DNA of 64,000 bases, taken from contig NZ_NESK01000019.1 in NCBI RefSeq assembly GCF_003063415.1, positions 1 through 64,000 of the forward strand. Reading direction: 5' to 3'. The notes beneath the pieces were generated by a model. That model was not told the DNA's origin, searched no databases, and worked only from the letters and a program-made list of their open reading frames with translations. The translations under genes were made by a program, and so were the position numbers. This document shows positions 19,768 to 60,342 of this stretch, piece after piece; the stretch's first letter is position 1; every line of letters starts with the position of its first letter. The stretch is from Limnohabitans sp. 2KL-17. GTDB taxonomy: Bacteria > Pseudomonadota > Gammaproteobacteria > Burkholderiales > Burkholderiaceae_C.

Positions 19768-20847
19768 CTACTTGGACGCGACTTTGGCAGCTGCCAAAGC
19801 GGGTTTCAGCAATTCAGGAAAGTCTTTGGCCATCGGTGCGCCATTGAGAGGCTTGTAGGCGCCCTGGTGGCAAGTGGCGCAATTGAGCTTGGCCACATCA
19901 CCTGTCGGCCCCTTGCGGTGCGCTGGAAAGACCTCGGTCAAGGGCTCCATGTAGGTCAGGTTCAGGTCTCGCGCCATGCGGATACCATGCCAGGCCGTTA
20001 CACGTTGGGGCGGGCTGTTTTCCCAGTTCTGGAACGACTGGGTGTTGTGGCAATAGGTGCAGTTCACGCCCAACGATGTCGACATGTGCGTCATCAATCC
20101 ATAAGTCCATTCGGCTTGCTTGATCGACTGCCGGTTACCAGAAGGCAAGGCAGTGGGCCCGTTCACACGGATTTTCTGGTCGCCAAGCAAAAACGGCGTG
20201 AAGGGGTCGTTGGGCAGCGAGGACAGATTGACCACTGGCGAGGGTTCGTTTTGGCCAGCCTTATCGCCCATGAAGTTCGAACCATAGGGTTGCGGGTCAG
20301 ACTTGAACCAGATCGCATTGGGCACGGGCTCTCCGCGGTGGCAGGTGTAGCAGGTCACGCCAGTCTGGGCCACATGGGGCTGCCAGTCGGCATTGATGTG
20401 CTGCGTCATCTCGACCATGCGACGCGCCACCACCTTGGTGTATTTGCTGTCGTCTTCAAAATTGGGCAATTGATGGCAATAGGCGCAGCCTTCCTGGGGT
20501 GCTACCCAGTTGGTCATGGAGACCATGAGCCGGTTGAATTCGCCCACACTCAGATCACCCAGCACCTTGACGTTCTTGTAAACCTGCGATGCCTTGGGAC
20601 CATCCGAGCCTGGCGAAGGGATCACCACGGGCGGTTGGTTTTTTTCGGTTTTAACTTCAAGCAGACGGGCGTTGTAGACCTGCACCATGCCCGTGCCCCG
20701 ATAACCGCTTTGCACAGATTCCGGACTGGGGCGCTCGCAGCCGGCCAGCAAAAGGCCCATGACTGCCAGGCCCAGGGATTTAAGCAAACGGCCAGCCCAA
20801 GCGGGGTTCAGGTCCACCGTATTGGTGTTCAGCGTGTGCAGGCTCAT
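19768..20847 (-). CDS. pufC: Photosynthetic reaction-centre tetraheme cytochrome c subunit PufC
   Basis: 359 residues. PufC docks on the periplasmic face of the reaction centre and re-reduces the special pair. Four CxxCH heme-binding sites are visible: C121-H125 (CAYCH), C166-H170 (CYTCH), C263-H267 (CTYCH) and C323-H327 (CATCH). An N-terminal helix ends in LLLAGC with the lipobox cysteine at 37, so the protein is probably an anchored lipoprotein. The N-terminal part before the helix ([20 protein letters not shown]) is rather long and polar. It overlaps pufM by 4 bases (ATGA). Confidence 0.96.
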
Positions 20848-21821
20848 GGCTTGGCTCCTGTGCTCAGCGCGGGGTCAACCATCGCTGGGAAAATTTCTGG
20901 GTAAGGGTGTGCCACGCCATGTTTGATGGCCCAAAGGTACCAGTTGTCCACCACGGTGCCCGTCAGCAAGATGCCAATGCCACCGGTGATGGGGCACAAC
21001 ACGGCAAACCACCAGGCCCAGCGGTGAATCGATTCCATGGTCGCATTGAAGCCCATGGTCCAGCGCCAAAACAAGGCGGCCCGCTCGGAGGCTGTCCCGC
21101 GGTCGGTGATCTGCTCGATCTCGCGCTCTCCACCAAAACGGGTCACCGCCAAAATGGTGGCACCGTGCATCGCAAACAACAGGGCAGAGCCATAAAGGAA
21201 CACGATGGACAACGCATGGAACGGGTTGTAGAAAAGGTTGCCGTAGCGCAAAGAGAACGCAGCGGTCCAGTCGAGATGGGAGAAGATGCCGTAGGGCACT
21301 GCCTCACCCCAAGAGCCCATCAGGATTGGGCGAAACAAGCCCAACACCAGGAAAAGCCAAATAGCTGCCGCAAACGCCCAGGCAACATGTGTGCCCATGC
21401 CCAACTCGACCGCACGGCGGTAAGTGCGGACCCACCAGAACATGATGGATGCCGTGAGAAACAAGCCCACGATCAAAAACCATCCGCCTTGGTTCAGTGG
21501 CGGAATACTCAACCCATAACTGGGCGGCGGTGGCTCCAGTGACAGCCAGAACAACTGGCGCACAAACTGGATCGGGTCGTAGTTGACCGAGGCCAGCATG
21601 TTCATGCCGATCAGGGTAAAAGCGATCATGCCGAACACGAGCGAGGCCAGCCCCAGCCCCCCCAGATAGATGGGTCCCAGCTGGGCATTGCCCAGCTTGC
21701 CGATCCAGTAATTGATCAGGGGTTGCCCGGTTCGCGGACTGTTGCCGTGTCCAAGTTCTACCCCTAGGTGCACCGGACCCACAGCTTGCACCGTGGTAAA
21801 CAGGTTTTGATAGTCGGCCAT
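20844..21821 (-). CDS. pufM: Photosynthetic reaction-centre M subunit
   Basis: 325 residues and five transmembrane helices. PufM and PufL form the type II reaction-centre core. Recognisable parts include [21 protein letters not shown] near the N-terminus, [23 protein letters not shown] with the special-pair and accessory pigment ligands, and the [18 protein letters not shown] segment with the iron-ligand histidine. It has a GGAG ribosome binding site and lies 49 bases after pufL. Confidence 0.97.
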
Positions 21822-21870: not shown

Positions 21871-22707
21871 TCAGACGGGCCACTGGGACCAGATCGGCAT
21901 GTTCAGCCACCAGCTCCACCACTCGGGCCAGCCACGGCTCCAGAAGGGGCCACTGAGCACGATGCACAGGGCGCTGAACAACACAGCAGCCAGTGCAAGA
22001 AACAAGCCCAAACGGTGGATGCCAAGGGTGCCGATCGAATAACCAATGATGTCGCGGAAGAACGTGTCTTCATGCTCAGGTGTCTTGACGACATGGCCCG
22101 GTGCAGGGTTGGTGGACGACAAAATCAGGCCACCGTGCAGCGACAAGGCAAACACACTGGCAAAGAAGAAGCTCACGGCAATCATGTGTGCCGGGTTGTA
22201 GTGAAAGTGCAGGTACTGATAGCCCACGTTGGACACCCAGTCAAGGTGGCTGTAGATGCCGTAGGGGAAGCCATGTCCCCAGGCGCCCATCAGCACTGGC
22301 CGCACGACCACCAAAGTGACGTAAGCAGAGATGGCCACACCGAAAGCCACAGGCACATGGAAACCCATGCCCAGTTTTCGGCAGATCTCGACCTCGCGCA
22401 TCATCCACGAGCCGAACGCCCCAATCGCGCAGACCGTGATGAGCTGCCACAGGCCCCCCTCCATCAGGGGCGCAAAGCGCAGGCCATACGACAGATCAGG
22501 CGGTGCGATGCTGATTTGCCAGATGTTCCAGGTTGGGCCTTGTGAGGCGCCCCACAAAATCAGGGCCGTACCCAGGAACGAAAAAAACAAGGTTGTGACG
22601 CCGAAAAACCCGACGTAAAAAGGACCGACCCAGAAGTCGAACAAATCGCCACCCAGCAGGGTACCACCGCGAACGCGGTACTTTTTCTCAAAACTCAGCA
22701 TGGCCAT
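21871..22707 (-). CDS. pufL: Photosynthetic reaction-centre L subunit
   Basis: 278 residues, the usual length. The N-terminus [36 protein letters not shown] is characteristic. [23 protein letters not shown] carries the pigment-ligand histidines, and [18 protein letters not shown] carries a non-heme iron ligand. The start is preceded by AGGAGG. A pair of stem-loops sits between pufA and pufL, as expected from the puf operons of other purple bacteria, where they set the excess of antenna over reaction-centre transcript. Confidence 0.97.
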
Positions 22708-22746
22708 GGCTTGGTCCTCCTGCTTGTGTGGATAAACAGATGCCGC

Positions 22747-22800
22747 ATTGAAACGGGTTCAATGACAGCATCTGGATGACAAGTCCTGAATCAGGACTTG
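22747..22800 (-). other. Two intercistronic stem-loops between pufA and pufL
   Basis: One inverted repeat is CAAGTCCTGA/TCAGGACTTG at 22780-22800, which overlaps the pufA stop codon. A second is ATTGAA/TTCAAT at 22747-22763. Neither has a T tract. In Rhodobacter the equivalent hairpins stabilise pufBA mRNA against decay and uncouple its level from pufLM; the same function is inferred here. Confidence 0.75.
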
Positions 22801-23000
22801 GGCGCGGCCAGCGAAGCCACCGACGTCGGCAGCGGCGAGTTTTGCGCCGATGCCGCTACCGGTTTTTTCGCACCGTCGAGCCAGTTGAATTTGTTGGTAC
22901 TGAGCAAGATGAGGTGAATCATCGCGGCCAGCCCGAACAAGAAAATACCCTGCAGTACCATGGCACGCAAAGGGTCGTACAGTCGCCAAATTCTCCACAT
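22791..23000 (-). CDS. pufA: LH1 light-harvesting alpha chain
   Basis: 69 residues from the ATG at 23000 (GGAG upstream). The sequence [20 protein letters not shown], the pigment ligand H29 in MIHLILLST and W40 in NKFNWL match the core antenna alpha chain, whose Trp at +11 from the histidine supports the usual long-wavelength absorption. The C-terminal tail after residue 44 is an Ala/Ser/Pro-rich extension of about 25 residues, longer than in Rhodospirillum rubrum. It lies 10 bases after the unnamed ORF and is followed by hairpins. Confidence 0.95.
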
Positions 23001-23010
23001 GGTGAATCTC

Positions 23011-23235
23011 CTAAATGATGTGGGACATGAAGGTGTACACCGCAGCATTCACGCCTTGGCTCATGCTTTTGGCATCTTCAGCGCCGGGCAACAGATCCCG
23101 CCAGTGAACGCCGACCAGCTTGGCCAGTACGACGACCACGAACAGACATCCAAAACCGATGAGGAAGATGGACCAAAATGCCGGGGATTCATCCGCACGC
23201 GAATGGTCCTCGTTGAGGTGAGTTGTGTTTTGCAT
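23011..23235 (-). CDS. Unnamed single-helix protein within the puf operon (PufX-like architecture)
   Basis: 74 residues, behind a GGAG ribosome binding site, placed between pufB (44-base gap) and pufA (10-base gap). It is not an alpha or beta antenna chain: there is no histidine in the helix. It has a polar acidic N-terminus of about 18 residues, one helix (about residues 20-42, beginning [10 protein letters not shown]), then HWRDLLPG, a short polar linker and an amphipathic end ([18 protein letters not shown]). That plan resembles Rhodobacter PufX, which has a helix, a VVGRMLP-like exit and an amphipathic C-terminus, but pufX lies after pufM and direct identity is low. A role in organising the LH1 ring or quinone exit is a hypothesis. 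Confidence 0.8.
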
Positions 23236-23279
23236 GACAGTGACTCCGTCAATCTATGGGTGAAAAAACAGGCTCTGAA

Positions 23280-23423
23280 TCAGAACCAGGGACGCCACGC
23301 CCAGACCAGGATGTGGGCCAGTACAGCGACCGCTGTAAAGCCTACGGTGCCTTGCATCCAGTAGTGGTGGAACTCCTGGGCTTCCTCATCGGTAAGTCCG
23401 GAAATTGATGTCTTGGTTGACAT
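23280..23423 (-). CDS. pufB: LH1 light-harvesting beta chain
   Basis: 47 residues from the ATG at 23423, with AGGAG upstream. The features are [19 protein letters not shown] in the N-terminal part and [15 protein letters not shown], holding the bacteriochlorophyll-ligating histidine and the aromatic end that hydrogen-bonds the pigment. It is the first puf gene after bchZ; the gap to the bchZ stop is 143 bases. No pufQ-like frame is found in that gap. The gap probably holds the puf promoter, but I found no TGT-N12-ACA site in it. Confidence 0.95.
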
Positions 23424-55549: not shown

Positions 55550-57724
55550 ATGAACGCCAAAACCATCCAATTTCTGCGCATGACCCATTTGCGCGGGCCC
55601 AACATTTGGACATACCGCCCTGTCATAGAGGCGCTGATCGACATTGGTGCCCTGGAAGACTTTCCCTCCAACACCTTACCGGGGTTTAACCAACGCTTGA
55701 CGGCATGGCTGCCGGGGATGATCGAGCACCGCTGCAGCGTGGGCGAACGCGGGGGATTTTTGCAACGCCTTGAAGAGGGCACCTGGTCTGGCCACGTTCT
55801 GGAACACGTCGCCCTGGAGTTGCAAACCCAGGCCGGCATGCAAACCGGGTTTGGCAAAGCCCGCGAAGCAGGACCCAGAGGCATCTACAAAGTGGTGATC
55901 CGCACGCGCCATGAAGCCGTCAGCCGCAGCGCGCTGGAGACCGCCCGTGACCTGATCCTGGCCGCCATCGAAGACCGCCCCTTCGACGTCAAAGCCGAAG
56001 TCAACCGACTCAAGCAAATGGTCGACAGCCTGTGCATCGGTCCCAGCACGGCCAGCATCGTGGACGCAGCAAGTGACCGCGGCATCCCCGCCATCCGTCT
56101 GAACGACGGTAACCTGGTGCAACTTGGCCATGGCGCCCAGCAGCGCCGCATCTGGACAGCCGAAACCGACCGCACCAGCGCGATTGCCGAAGGCATTTCC
56201 AAAGACAAGGACCTGACCAAAAAGTTGCTCAGCATGTGCGGCGTTCCCGTACCCCAAGGCCAAATCGTAGACAGCCCTGCTGCGGCCTGGGAGGCGGCGC
56301 AAGACATTGGCTTGCCCGTGTGCGTGAAACCCACCGATGGCAACCACGCGCGTGGCGTTTCACTCGAGCTTACTAAACAAGAAGACATCGAAGCCGCTTA
56401 CGGCATTGCCCTGGCAGAGGGCAGCGAAGTCATGGTGGAGCGATTCATCCTGGGTGAAGAGCACCGCCTGTTGGTGGTGGGTGACCATGTGGCTGCTGCC
56501 AACAAAGGCGAGACTGCCAGCGTGGTGGGCGATGGTGATCACACCATTGCGCAGCTGATCGAGCTTCAGATCAACTCCGACCCCCGCCGTGGCGAAGAAG
56601 AAGATTACCCACTTGACACCATCCGGTTGGAAGAGCACACCACCTCGGTACTGGAACTCAAGCGCCAGGGCCTGACGGCCGACAGCGTGCCAGAAAAAGG
56701 CCGGTCCGTGCTCATCATGCGCACTGGCAATATGGCCCTGGATGTCACGGATGAAGTGCATCCCGAATTGGCCGCGCAAGCCGTGCTGGCTGCACGCGTG
56801 GTGGGCCTGGACATCGCCGGTGTCGATCTGGTTGCACAAGACATTTCCCGGCCGCTGGCTGCGCAAGGGGGCGCGATTGTCGAGGTCAATGCAGGCCCGG
56901 GTTTGCTGATGCACCTGAAGCCCGCCGTAGGCAAGCCGCGACCTGTTGGGCAAGCCATTGCCAACCATTTGTTCAAACCCACGGACACCGGGCGGATTCC
57001 GGTGATTGGTCTCATCGGCGATGGGGATACCACACGCCCTGCCCAATTGGTGGCTTGGCTTTTGCACCTCAAGGGTCTGTACACCGGCCTGGCCTGTGCA
57101 GACGGCTTGTTCATGAACCAGCGCAAACTGCAAAGCGAAGGTGGCATGGACTGGGACAATGCCCAACGACTGCTGATCAACCGGTCGGTTCAAACAGCCG
57201 TTTTTGAAAGCGATATCCGCCATTTGCTGACCGAAGGTTTTCCTTATGACCGCTGCCAGGTTGGCGTGATCACGCGCATGCCCAAGGCCCAGGGTCTGGA
57301 GGATTTATACCCCGGTAATGACGAAAAAATGCCGGACTATGTCCGCACGCAAATTGACGTGGTTCTGCCTAGTGGCACAGCCGTGCTGAATGCCGCTGAC
57401 CCCCAAGTGGCCGATCTGAGCCGCTATTGCGATGGCAGCGTGATTTTTTATGCCGACGACGAAAAAAACCCTCGCCTTTTGGCCCATTGGACGGAAGGCG
57501 GACGGATTGCCTTCTGGCGTGATGGGCAGTTGGTTTTGAGTGAAGGTCAACGTGAAGCCCTCGTCCTGTCCAACAAGCGCCCCGCAGTTTCGCGCCTGTT
57601 GCAGGAAGGTCGGCTCACTTCCGATGACATGCTGGTCGCCGCCAGCGTTGCATGGGCCCTGGACATCAGCATGGATTTGATCCGTGCCGGTGTCAAAAGC
57701 TTTGGCCAGAACAACTCTCATTGA
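55550..57724 (+). CDS. cphA2: Cyanophycin synthetase-like CphA2/CphA' (lacking Mur-ligase P-loop)
   Basis: 724 residues, shorter than CphA. The N-terminal and ATP-grasp parts are intact (DKDLTKKLLSMCGVPVPQG, VCVKPTDGNHARGVS, VEVNAGPGLLMHL). The Mur-ligase part is degenerate: GDGDTTRP at about 490-497 stands where CphA has GTNGKTTT, so the P-loop lysine is missing, and the C-terminal ligase domain is truncated. CphA2 enzymes of this kind polymerise beta-Asp-Arg dipeptide with one ATP site. It is followed by cphA after 47 bases and diverges from the ABC gene; the 167-base gap should hold both promoters. Confidence 0.88.
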   Translation: MNAKTIQFLRMTHLRGPNIWTYRPVIEALIDIGALEDFPSNTLPGFNQRLTAWLPGMIEHRCSVGERGGFLQRLEEGTWSGHVLEHVALELQTQAGMQTGFGKAREAGPRGIYKVVIRTRHEAVSRSALETARDLILAAIEDRPFDVKAEVNRLKQMVDSLCIGPSTASIVDAASDRGIPAIRLNDGNLVQLGHGAQQRRIWTAETDRTSAIAEGISKDKDLTKKLLSMCGVPVPQGQIVDSPAAAWEAAQDIGLPVCVKPTDGNHARGVSLELTKQEDIEAAYGIALAEGSEVMVERFILGEEHRLLVVGDHVAAANKGETASVVGDGDHTIAQLIELQINSDPRRGEEEDYPLDTIRLEEHTTSVLELKRQGLTADSVPEKGRSVLIMRTGNMALDVTDEVHPELAAQAVLAARVVGLDIAGVDLVAQDISRPLAAQGGAIVEVNAGPGLLMHLKPAVGKPRPVGQAIANHLFKPTDTGRIPVIGLIGDGDTTRPAQLVAWLLHLKGLYTGLACADGLFMNQRKLQSEGGMDWDNAQRLLINRSVQTAVFESDIRHLLTEGFPYDRCQVGVITRMPKAQGLEDLYPGNDEKMPDYVRTQIDVVLPSGTAVLNAADPQVADLSRYCDGSVIFYADDEKNPRLLAHWTEGGRIAFWRDGQLVLSEGQREALVLSNKRPAVSRLLQEGRLTSDDMLVAASVAWALDISMDLIRAGVKSFGQNNSH

Positions 57725-57771
57725 TATTCGACAAGCCCTTCGGCCTTAGCTCATCACAGGAACAATGCTTC

Positions 57772-60342
57772 ATGGAAGTGTCAAGAATACGCGCACTGCG
57801 CGGCCCCAATTTGTGGAGCCGTCACACGGCCATGGAGGCGATCGTCACATGTCCTGAGGCCGAACGCAGCCTCTTGCCCAACCACCCCATCGAGCAGCGA
57901 CTGCGGCGCATCTTTCCGGAGGTCGGGCCCATTGACGGCAGCCGTCCCGGACAGTCGCCGTCGATGGCGCATGCTCTGGAAAAAGTCACACTGGCTTTGC
58001 AAGCACACGCGGGCTGCCCTGTCACCTTCAGTCGCACCACCGCCACCGAAGAGTCGGGCGTCTACCAAGTCGTTGTGCAGTATTCCGAGGAGGCTGTAGG
58101 CCGTTTGGCGCTTGAACTGGCCGAACAACTTTGCAGGGCTGCCACAGTCGGTCAAGGCTTTGATCTGGAAAGCGCATTGGCGAAACTCCATGAACTGGAC
58201 GAAGATGTGCGCCTGGGTCCCTCCACAGGCTCGATCGTAGACGCAGCTGTCGCCAGAGGGATTCCCTTGCGACGCTTGACCGATGGCAGCTTGGTGCAAT
58301 TTGGCTGGGGCTCTCAACAACGGCGTATTCAAGCTGCTGAAATTGACGCCTCCAGTGCGATCGCCGAATCCATCGCCCAAGACAAGGACCTGACCAAAAA
58401 GCTGCTGCACGCAGCCGGGGTGCCCGTGCCCTTGGGCCGCCCAGCACAGACCCTCGAAGAAGCCTGGGCCATCGGCAAGGAAGTGGGCTTTCCCGTTGTG
58501 GTCAAGCCGCAGGATGGCAACCAGGGCAAAGGTGTCACCGTCAATATCACCGAGCGTGAAGCTTTTGACAAAGCCTATGCCACTGCCGAGCGTTACGGCA
58601 CCGTCATGGTCGAGAAATTTTTGCCGGGCCACGATTACCGACTGCTGGTGGTGGGCAACAAACTGATTGCTGCGGCTCGCCGTGAGCCCCCCTTGGTGGT
58701 GGGCGATGGCAAACACACGGTGCGCCAACTGGTGGATCTGGTCAACGCTGACCCCCGCCGCGGCACGGGTCACTCCACCTCGCTGACCAAGATCAGGTTT
58801 GACGACATTGCGATTGGCCGCTTGCATGCCCAGGATCTCGAACCCGAATCGGTGCCCGAGAAGGGGCGCCGGGTCATCTTGCGCAACAACGCCAACCTGT
58901 CTACGGGGGGCAGTGCCACAGATGTGACCGACGATGTGCACCCTGAAGTCGCCGCCAGAGTCATTGAAGCGGCTCAGATGGTAGGGCTGGATATTTGTGG
59001 CGTTGACGTGGTGTGTGAATCCGTTTTGCGCCCACTGGAAGACCAAAACGGGGGCGTCGTCGAAGTCAATGCGGCCCCGGGCTTGCGCATGCACATCAGT
59101 CCTTCTTATGGCAAGGGCCGCGATGTGGGCAATGCCGTGATCGACCAGATGTTCCCCAACGGCGCAACAGGCCGTATTCCTGTGATTGCAGTCACAGGCA
59201 CCAACGGCAAAACAACCACCGTGCGTCTGACGGCCCATTTGCTGAAAGCCAAAGGTTTGCGCGTTGGCATGACCAACACCGATGGTGTGTATGTGAACGG
59301 CCGCCAGACCGACTCGGGTGACTGCAGCGGCCCCCGCAGTGCACGTAACGTGTTGATGCACCCCGATGTGGATGCTGCGGTGTTCGAGACTGCCCGTGGC
59401 GGCCTGCTGCGCGAAGGCTTGGCCTTTGACCGATGCAACGTGGCCATCGTGACCAATCTGGGCGGCGGTGATCACCTGGGCCTGAACTACATCACGACGC
59501 TGGAAGACTTGTCTGTTCTCAAACGCGTGATCGTGCTCAACGTAGAGCACAACGGCATGGCCGTGCTCAACGCAGCAGATCCTGCCGTGGCCATGATGGC
59601 ACCGCACTGCCCTGGCGATGTGACCTTTTTTGCGCTGGATGCCAACCAGCCCGTTTTGGCGACTCACCGCGCCCAAGGCAAACGTGTGGTGTTCACAGAA
59701 GACGGCCAGATCGTGGCTCAAAAAGGCAAACAGATTTTCCGCATTCCGCTTTCCCAGGTGCCCATTACCCGGCAAGGCCAAATCGGCTTTCAGACTGAAA
59801 ACGTAATGGCGTCCATTGGTGCTGCCTGGGCAGTGGGTGTGCCGTGGGATACGATTGCCCAAGGTGTCGCCACTTTCATCAGCGACATTCGAGGTGTGCC
59901 GGGTCGGTTCAACGTGTTTGACTACCGCGGTGCTACCTTGATCGCGGACTATGGCCACAACCCGGACGCCATACAGGCCCTCGTGCAAGCGGTCGACAAC
60001 ATGCCGGCCCACAAACGCTTGGTGGTCATCAGCGGCGCTGGCGACAGACGCGATCAGGACATACGCGACCAAACCAAAATTCTGGGTCAGGCTTTCGACG
60101 AAGTCTTGCTTTACCAGGATGCCTGCCAACGTGGGCGCGCAGATGGCGAGGTCATTCGATTGCTGCGCGAAGGTTTGCAGGGTGCTGCAAGAACCACCCA
60201 TGTACAAGACATTCAGGGGGAGTTCAATGCGATCGACACAGCGCTGTCCCGCTTGTCGCCTGGCGATTTGTGCCTGATTCTGATCGACCAGGTCGAAGAG
60301 GCTTTGGCCTACATCACCGAGAAGGTCAAAGCAGCATCATGA
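57772..60342 (+). CDS. cphA: Cyanophycin synthetase CphA
   Basis: 856 residues from the ATG at 57772 (AGGAA upstream). CphA builds the storage polymer multi-L-arginyl-poly-L-aspartate. An N-terminal domain (about 1-160) precedes an ATP-grasp domain (about 185-440: DKDLTKKLLHAAGVPVPLG, VVVKPQDGNQGKGVT, VEVNAAPGLRMH), then a Mur-ligase domain with an intact P-loop GTNGKTTT at 476-483, NLGGGDHLG and YGHNPDA. Both active sites look functional. Its 3' end overlaps the convergent acyltransferase gene by 6 bases. No cyanophycinase lies in the window. Confidence 0.95.
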   Translation: MEVSRIRALRGPNLWSRHTAMEAIVTCPEAERSLLPNHPIEQRLRRIFPEVGPIDGSRPGQSPSMAHALEKVTLALQAHAGCPVTFSRTTATEESGVYQVVVQYSEEAVGRLALELAEQLCRAATVGQGFDLESALAKLHELDEDVRLGPSTGSIVDAAVARGIPLRRLTDGSLVQFGWGSQQRRIQAAEIDASSAIAESIAQDKDLTKKLLHAAGVPVPLGRPAQTLEEAWAIGKEVGFPVVVKPQDGNQGKGVTVNITEREAFDKAYATAERYGTVMVEKFLPGHDYRLLVVGNKLIAAARREPPLVVGDGKHTVRQLVDLVNADPRRGTGHSTSLTKIRFDDIAIGRLHAQDLEPESVPEKGRRVILRNNANLSTGGSATDVTDDVHPEVAARVIEAAQMVGLDICGVDVVCESVLRPLEDQNGGVVEVNAAPGLRMHISPSYGKGRDVGNAVIDQMFPNGATGRIPVIAVTGTNGKTTTVRLTAHLLKAKGLRVGMTNTDGVYVNGRQTDSGDCSGPRSARNVLMHPDVDAAVFETARGGLLREGLAFDRCNVAIVTNLGGGDHLGLNYITTLEDLSVLKRVIVLNVEHNGMAVLNAADPAVAMMAPHCPGDVTFFALDANQPVLATHRAQGKRVVFTEDGQIVAQKGKQIFRIPLSQVPITRQGQIGFQTENVMASIGAAWAVGVPWDTIAQGVATFISDIRGVPGRFNVFDYRGATLIADYGHNPDAIQALVQAVDNMPAHKRLVVISGAGDRRDQDIRDQTKILGQAFDEVLLYQDACQRGRADGEVIRLLREGLQGAARTTHVQDIQGEFNAIDTALSRLSPGDLCLILIDQVEEALAYITEKVKAAS

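Follow-up and report, generated by a model that had tools for sequence, protein, structure and literature searches.

ORF1 and ORF2, two open reading frames of the Rubrivivax gelatinosus puf operon, reportedly go back to Nagashima 1994, through a citation in a more recent study. The part of that study (PMC12817894, 2025) that treats the operon locates ORF1 on the upstream side of pufB and ORF2 on that of pufA and assigns neither a function; the one comparison it makes for ORF2 is with α chains, at 14.5, 10.1 and 14.5% identity to PufA2. The Roseateles depolymerans genes pufA, pufB and ORF74 (RD2015_RS05160, 05150 and 05155, respectively) are reported to be co-transcribed on the major 1-kb puf transcript. 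Excerpts of the same report (PMC10037100) describe these three genes as those responding most strongly when carbon was withdrawn and as coming first among the genes reduced in a sigma-factor mutant, with 0.71, 1.09 and 2.34% of TPM left.

Here we describe the counterpart of these genes in a window of 64,000 nucleotides, the whole stretch of DNA analysed, from Limnohabitans sp. 2KL-17 (contig NZ_NESK01000019.1, positions 1 to 64,000). Rubrivivax ORF2 and Roseateles ORF74 are the same gene in the same place as the ORF74 of the window, from which they differ by sequence divergence only (L217, L219 and L238; operon passages of PMC12817894 and PMC10037100). A homologous ORF lies between pufB and pufA in the Rubrivivax/Roseateles loci L217, L219, L224 and L238, the last of which is from Roseateles depolymerans. 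ORF74 was already known as an ORF; what appears to be new is the family to which it belongs, its almost universal occurrence in the order and its trade-off against a tail on the β chain. No link of ORF2 or ORF74 to β chains was found in the literature covered, which lay mostly outside subscription journals.

The gene between pufB and pufA

The genes discussed here lie on the minus strand in the order bchC-bchX-bchY-bchZ-pufB-ORF74-pufA-pufL-pufM-pufC, where the four bch names are presumptive and were given by recognising the proteins. Following pufB (23280..23423; a short form ending WRPWF, with matches to Pfam LHC at 4.2e-12 and NCBIfam pufB at 8.3e-24) after a gap of 44 nt, ORF74 (23011..23235; 74 residues and a stop) was delineated from its reading frame, its conservation and profile comparison. 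Its ATG at 23235 is preceded by a GGAG ribosome-binding site 8 nt to the 5′ side (23244..23247), and its stop lies 10 nt from the ATG of pufA at 23000 (22791..23000; Pfam LHC 1.3e-12, NCBIfam pufA 1.5e-17). The operon continues with pufL (21871..22707) and pufM (20844..21821), both matching Pfam Photo_RC, and with pufC (19768..20847; Pfam CytoC_RC). An earlier note on this DNA had described a small gene with its own ribosome-binding site between pufB and pufA, as is confirmed here, and had suggested co-transcription with the antenna genes, which is reported for the Roseateles homologue and pufBA in the expression data of PMC10037100.

Two RNA hairpins at the end of pufA and in the pufA-pufL gap (22737..22800; z of -4.49 against 200 shuffles for the fold of 22705-22800) delimit the pufB-ORF74-pufA segment. 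RNA folding also predicts a 7-bp hairpin that overlaps the pufB stop and is followed by a T run (23271-23287); it is terminator-like and may reduce ORF74 and pufA in comparison with pufB in the window genome. As a conserved ratio switch it was rejected: a terminator-like hairpin was found in 0 of 122 pufB-ORF74 gaps, in a scan whose starting point, past the pufB stop, excluded that of the window, and none was seen by eye in the gaps of genomes G006, G071, G189 and G485. Elsewhere in the window, two adjoining long ORFs of 724 and 896 residues (55550-60342) presumably resemble cyanophycin synthetases.

Searches with ORF74 returned no matches in Pfam (E≤1), NCBIfam (E≤10) or PHROGs (E≤1), and none among PLSDB plasmids at E≤0.01. 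Matches are present in 41 of 100 related genomes, 42 in total (one, in G050, is cut short, and G016 extends no further than residue 12 of pufA); 41 of the 42 sit between pufB and pufA, and the one other, in G088, is a long-tailed pufB. The search pattern was matched by 162 stretches of named genomes, of which 145 encode relatives; the best 80 of the 145 comprise 77 with the order pufB-ORF-pufA and three at contig edges. Conserved synteny, for which the earlier note had proposed to look, is evident. Carriers listed include Rubrivivax gelatinosus DSM 1709 and IM 151, Rvi. benzoatilyticus JA2, Limnohabitans sp. Rim11, Roseateles depolymerans, R. puraquae, R. toxinivorans, Piscinibacter, Pseudacidovorax and Aquincola. 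One metagenome bin (G056) holds two different puf operons (L024, L025) with the ORF in both, as would be seen in a mixed bin or with a genuine second copy.

Pooled dN/dS between the window and 21 relatives was 0.10 for ORF74, where a value near 1 had been named as speaking against the idea, compared with 0.076 for pufA, 0.015 for pufB and 0.031 for pufL (20 pairs). Together with its conservation, this value indicates that ORF74 is a gene under purifying selection, held more loosely than its neighbours, and rules out a chance ORF.

Kinship with the LH1 β chain

A profile of 70 ORF74 sequences retrieved 37 PDB chains at E≤0.01, every one of them named antenna or light-harvesting (best 3.6e-16). 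With the single sequence (E≤10), six of eight matches were antenna chains (best 2.8e-4), the other two belonging to respiratory complexes. Comparison by hhalign gave 99.6% against long-tailed β (E 4e-24 over 75 columns) and 95.7% against short β (E 1e-8), versus 20.6% against α. In a tree of 74 columns, which is weak because the columns are so few, the 26 sampled ORF74 sequences fall into a single clade (95/87), which groups with the β chains (99/94); PufQ and upQ, a small membrane protein described below, lie outside. At the level of sequence, these comparisons establish ORF74 as a third member of the LHC family encoded in the puf operon and a divergent paralogue of LH1 β. Like LH1 β (PufB, PF00556), and especially the long-tailed chains 8z81_B and 9m8m_B, with which it aligns over its full length and nearly without gaps, it possesses a helix, a W-R-x-x-L-P-G exit and a tail. 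Unlike LH1 β, it misses the family cut-offs: ORF74 of the window does not match the LHC family, and the best tested homologue reaches 21.6 of 23 bits in Pfam and 31 of 61 in NCBIfam. The matches of homologue L121 to NCBIfam pufB (E 1.8e-7) and to Pfam LHC (E 2.6e-4) are both below cut-off, while LHC is not among the family matches of homologue L117.

The further difference from LH1 β lies in the histidines. In a joint alignment, Lys39 (codon 23119..23121) occupies the position of the β bacteriochlorophyll (BChl) ligand, His0, in agreement with the missing pigment ligand remarked on in the earlier note; His44 of the window protein stands at +5. Of 115 distinct homologues, 114 have another residue in place of the ligand (Q in 71, K in 22, T in 8 and others in 13), and the N-terminal His is retained in only two of the 115. 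The sole homologue with His at the ligand position is L126 (G190; 1587-1811). Among the residues retained are Trp at +6 (114/115), Arg at +7 (112/115), Pro at +11 (114/115) and Gly at +12 (115/115), and when 26 diverse ORF74 sequences were aligned, five of the six invariant columns fell in the exit and tail. Since the residue that holds BChl has been lost, ORF74 probably shapes the light-harvesting ring, or helps to assemble it, rather than capturing light.

An AF2 model of low confidence (mean pLDDT 66.6, pTM 0.36; pLDDT 88 and 84 in residues 21-40) predicts a membrane helix at residues 18-48 (23092..23184) and, after a break, a second helix at 53-73. Foldseek returned no PDB matches for this model, a null made uninformative by its weakness, and the charges on either side of the helix do not discriminate between topologies. 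From the alignments, the C-terminal tail (residues 49-74; 23014..23091) is absent from pufB of the window and present on long β chains elsewhere. In comparing the layout of the protein with PufX, the earlier note had pointed to a single helix and an amphipathic C terminus; the single-helix plan is supported, but the amphipathic character only weakly, as the hydrophobic moment of the last 20 residues lies more than 2 SD above shuffles in 32 of 115 homologues.

Distribution and the trade-off with the β tail

To avoid selecting on ORF74, pufL was used as bait. It was found in 63 of 399 family-sampled and 47 of 399 order-sampled genomes, 106 distinct genomes of which 103 were assessable (G471, G632 and G748 being without data); the sampled genomes mostly represent species and include many metagenome bins. 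ORF74 is the rule in Burkholderiales puf operons. It occurs with a short pufB in 87 of the 103, which overturns the view that betaproteobacterial puf operons usually lack such a gene. The order is pufB-ORF-pufA in 86 of the 87, with pufB ending 1-3 residues past a WRPW-type motif, and in the 87th (G506) pufA lies on a separate contig. A further 12 operons (including G246) carry a pufB with a tail of 27-28 residues and no ORF74, and four (G213, G523, G640 and G670) have a short pufB, no ORF74, and a small membrane ORF, upQ, upstream of pufB. No operon among the 103 combines long β with ORF74, and none is without all three of ORF74, long β and upQ. When operons selected through the ORF were added (n=141), 123 had ORF74, one had it cut short, 12 had long β, four had upQ and one was without data. 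A search of 20 whole genomes with the ORF74 profile, including the 16 exceptions, found no extra copy in the 16 beyond pufB and upQ.

On a PufL tree the long-β state requires at least seven changes, although many forks are weak and only one change is forced by well-supported branches; here the ORF74 state was given to every genome off the exception lists, and a recount from the data agreed. One locus, L100 (G213), is a comamonad-type operon with a short pufB and no ORF74, whose upQ groups with that of family f23 (99/91), perhaps a swap by transfer.

In samples of the class and the phylum, pufL was found in 7 of 369 and 31 of 398 genomes, giving 32 genomes beyond Burkholderiales; a locus was readable in 31 of the 32, with none from G1551. 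An ORF74-family ORF between pufB and pufA was found in 0 of these 31. Their bchZ-pufB interval holds upQ (>40 bits) in 11 and PufQ, recognised by its C-terminal pattern, in 10, seven of which are also confirmed by Pfam PufQ; at the thresholds used, neither was detected in the other 10. Long β and upQ co-occur outside Burkholderiales, so that the trade-off between ORF and tail is limited to that order. Loci such as L148, L150 and L160 have a short β for which no tail-bearing partner was found, so the tail is not required everywhere. The gammaproteobacterial upQ of L147 (G867), whose end lies some 360 nt ahead of the pufB stop, carries Ala-His and WRGWMP at the β ligand site and looks like an intermediate between β and upQ.

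Possible roles of ORF74

We tentatively propose that ORF74 is a pigment-free, β-like subunit of RC-LH1 that works through its tail, a reading to which we give a probability of about one half. The protein would insert as β does, with its N terminus in the cytoplasm and its tail in the periplasm, and would sit beside a β chain or replace one at one site or a small number of sites in the LH1 ring. From such a site its tail could contact neighbouring LH1 chains, PufC or the reaction centre and perhaps keep a pigment-free seam for quinol exit, while in relatives without ORF74 the same job would be done by tails on the β chains themselves. Residence in the core is favoured by the 12 operons in which the separate gene is missing and the tail is borne by β, a component of the ring. 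Evidence against such a subunit includes the looser dN/dS of ORF74 relative to pufB and pufL, the weak AF2 model with its Foldseek null, and the partnerless short β chains outside Burkholderiales, and the four of 103 operons that have upQ in the PufQ slot instead of ORF74 point to a PufQ-type role.

That role, in which ORF74 would be a small protein of the membrane, produced alongside the antenna, that steers pigment flux or antenna assembly and is no lasting subunit of the core, is the main rival; it is possible, if less probable than residence in the core. Rhodobacter PufQ acts on tetrapyrrole flux through ferrochelatase and, like ORF74, is a small single-helix protein of the puf operon with a conserved C terminus (passages on PufQ in PMC5725709). 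ORF74 is related to upQ, which lies in the PufQ slot between bchZ and pufB (hhalign 97.6%, E 3.5e-12), and in the 3.5-Mb genome of the window, where no credible PufQ was found, the sole match to the upQ profile is ORF74 (E 8.5e-6). In Burkholderiales upQ is limited to the four operons with short β and no ORF74, where it scores 76.5-98.1 bits (these being partly seeds of the profile), and no other upstream ORF in Burkholderiales loci exceeds 5.8 bits. An upQ-type ORF upstream of pufB was not found in Rubrivivax loci L217, L219 and L224, so that the printed ORF1 is either something else or below threshold. However, ORF74 groups with β and not with upQ or PufQ in the 74-column tree, and it occupies the pufB-pufA interval and not the PufQ slot. 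Kinship with PufQ itself (PF05398) is suggestive for ORF74 (hhalign 42.5%, E 2.6e-4, with no Pfam PufQ match) and weak for upQ (hhalign 35.4%; Pfam PufQ at E 0.017 for one of six scanned). Moreover, the 12 long-β operons have neither upQ nor ORF74, so the β tail seems to suffice.

Other readings fare less well. A third antenna chain, with BChl ligated via Gln, Asn or water instead of His, would fit the predominance of Gln at the ligand site, the His retained in L126 and the Trp at +9 in 85 of 115 homologues, yet the site is also occupied by K, T, A, L and G, and by K in the window. These five residues ligate BChl poorly if at all, which leaves such a chain quite improbable. Co-transcription with pufBA would permit the high copy number of a filler plugging gaps between β chains, for which the γ-like chains between the β chains of Rhodopila are a precedent; these, however, have 22 residues, the opposite orientation and a gene far from puf (account of these chains in PMC9640540), whereas ORF74 aligns to β over its full length, and we regard a filler as very improbable. 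Orthology with PufX, on which the earlier note had modelled its proposal, is next to negligible and was rejected: PufX shares with ORF74 the puf operon and the general plan of one helix between polar ends, but hhalign gives 2.5%, and Pfam PufX (PF11511), which detects four of the seven f263 genomes searched, finds nothing in ORF74 (E≤1) or in the window genome. Published work relates PufX to the N terminus of the PufC cytochrome and not to antenna chains (PufX discussion in PMC9640540), and the operon of the window includes pufC. The broader idea of an LH1-organising subunit survives on the different footing of β-chain kinship. The pigment-free core subunit favoured here might act somewhat like PufX or protein W, yet would belong to the LH-β superfamily. 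Protein W, protein-U/Y and RC-S/RC-U are likewise RC-LH1 polypeptides beyond the standard subunits (descriptions in PMC8564508 and PMC10214105) but are absent from the PDB sequence matches of ORF74.

More speculatively, ORF74, upQ and PufQ could form one family of retired, ligand-less LH-β paralogues that control ring assembly or closure. This is doubtful at present; if it were so, the job in Burkholderiales would fall sometimes to a separate protein and sometimes to the β tail, and the core rings of betaproteobacteria would contain a pigment-free seam that has gone unseen.

The other extra core chains (PufX, protein W, protein-U/Y, γ-like chains and RC-S/RC-U) are described, in the excerpts of the structural literature cited above, from particular genera, whereas ORF74 spans a whole order, and many of its carriers are freshwater phototrophs. 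Its exchange against the β tail amounts to a natural experiment, and what had been an ORF of unknown function becomes a testable subunit, with a bearing on how quinol leaves LH1 rings and on the origin of PufQ.
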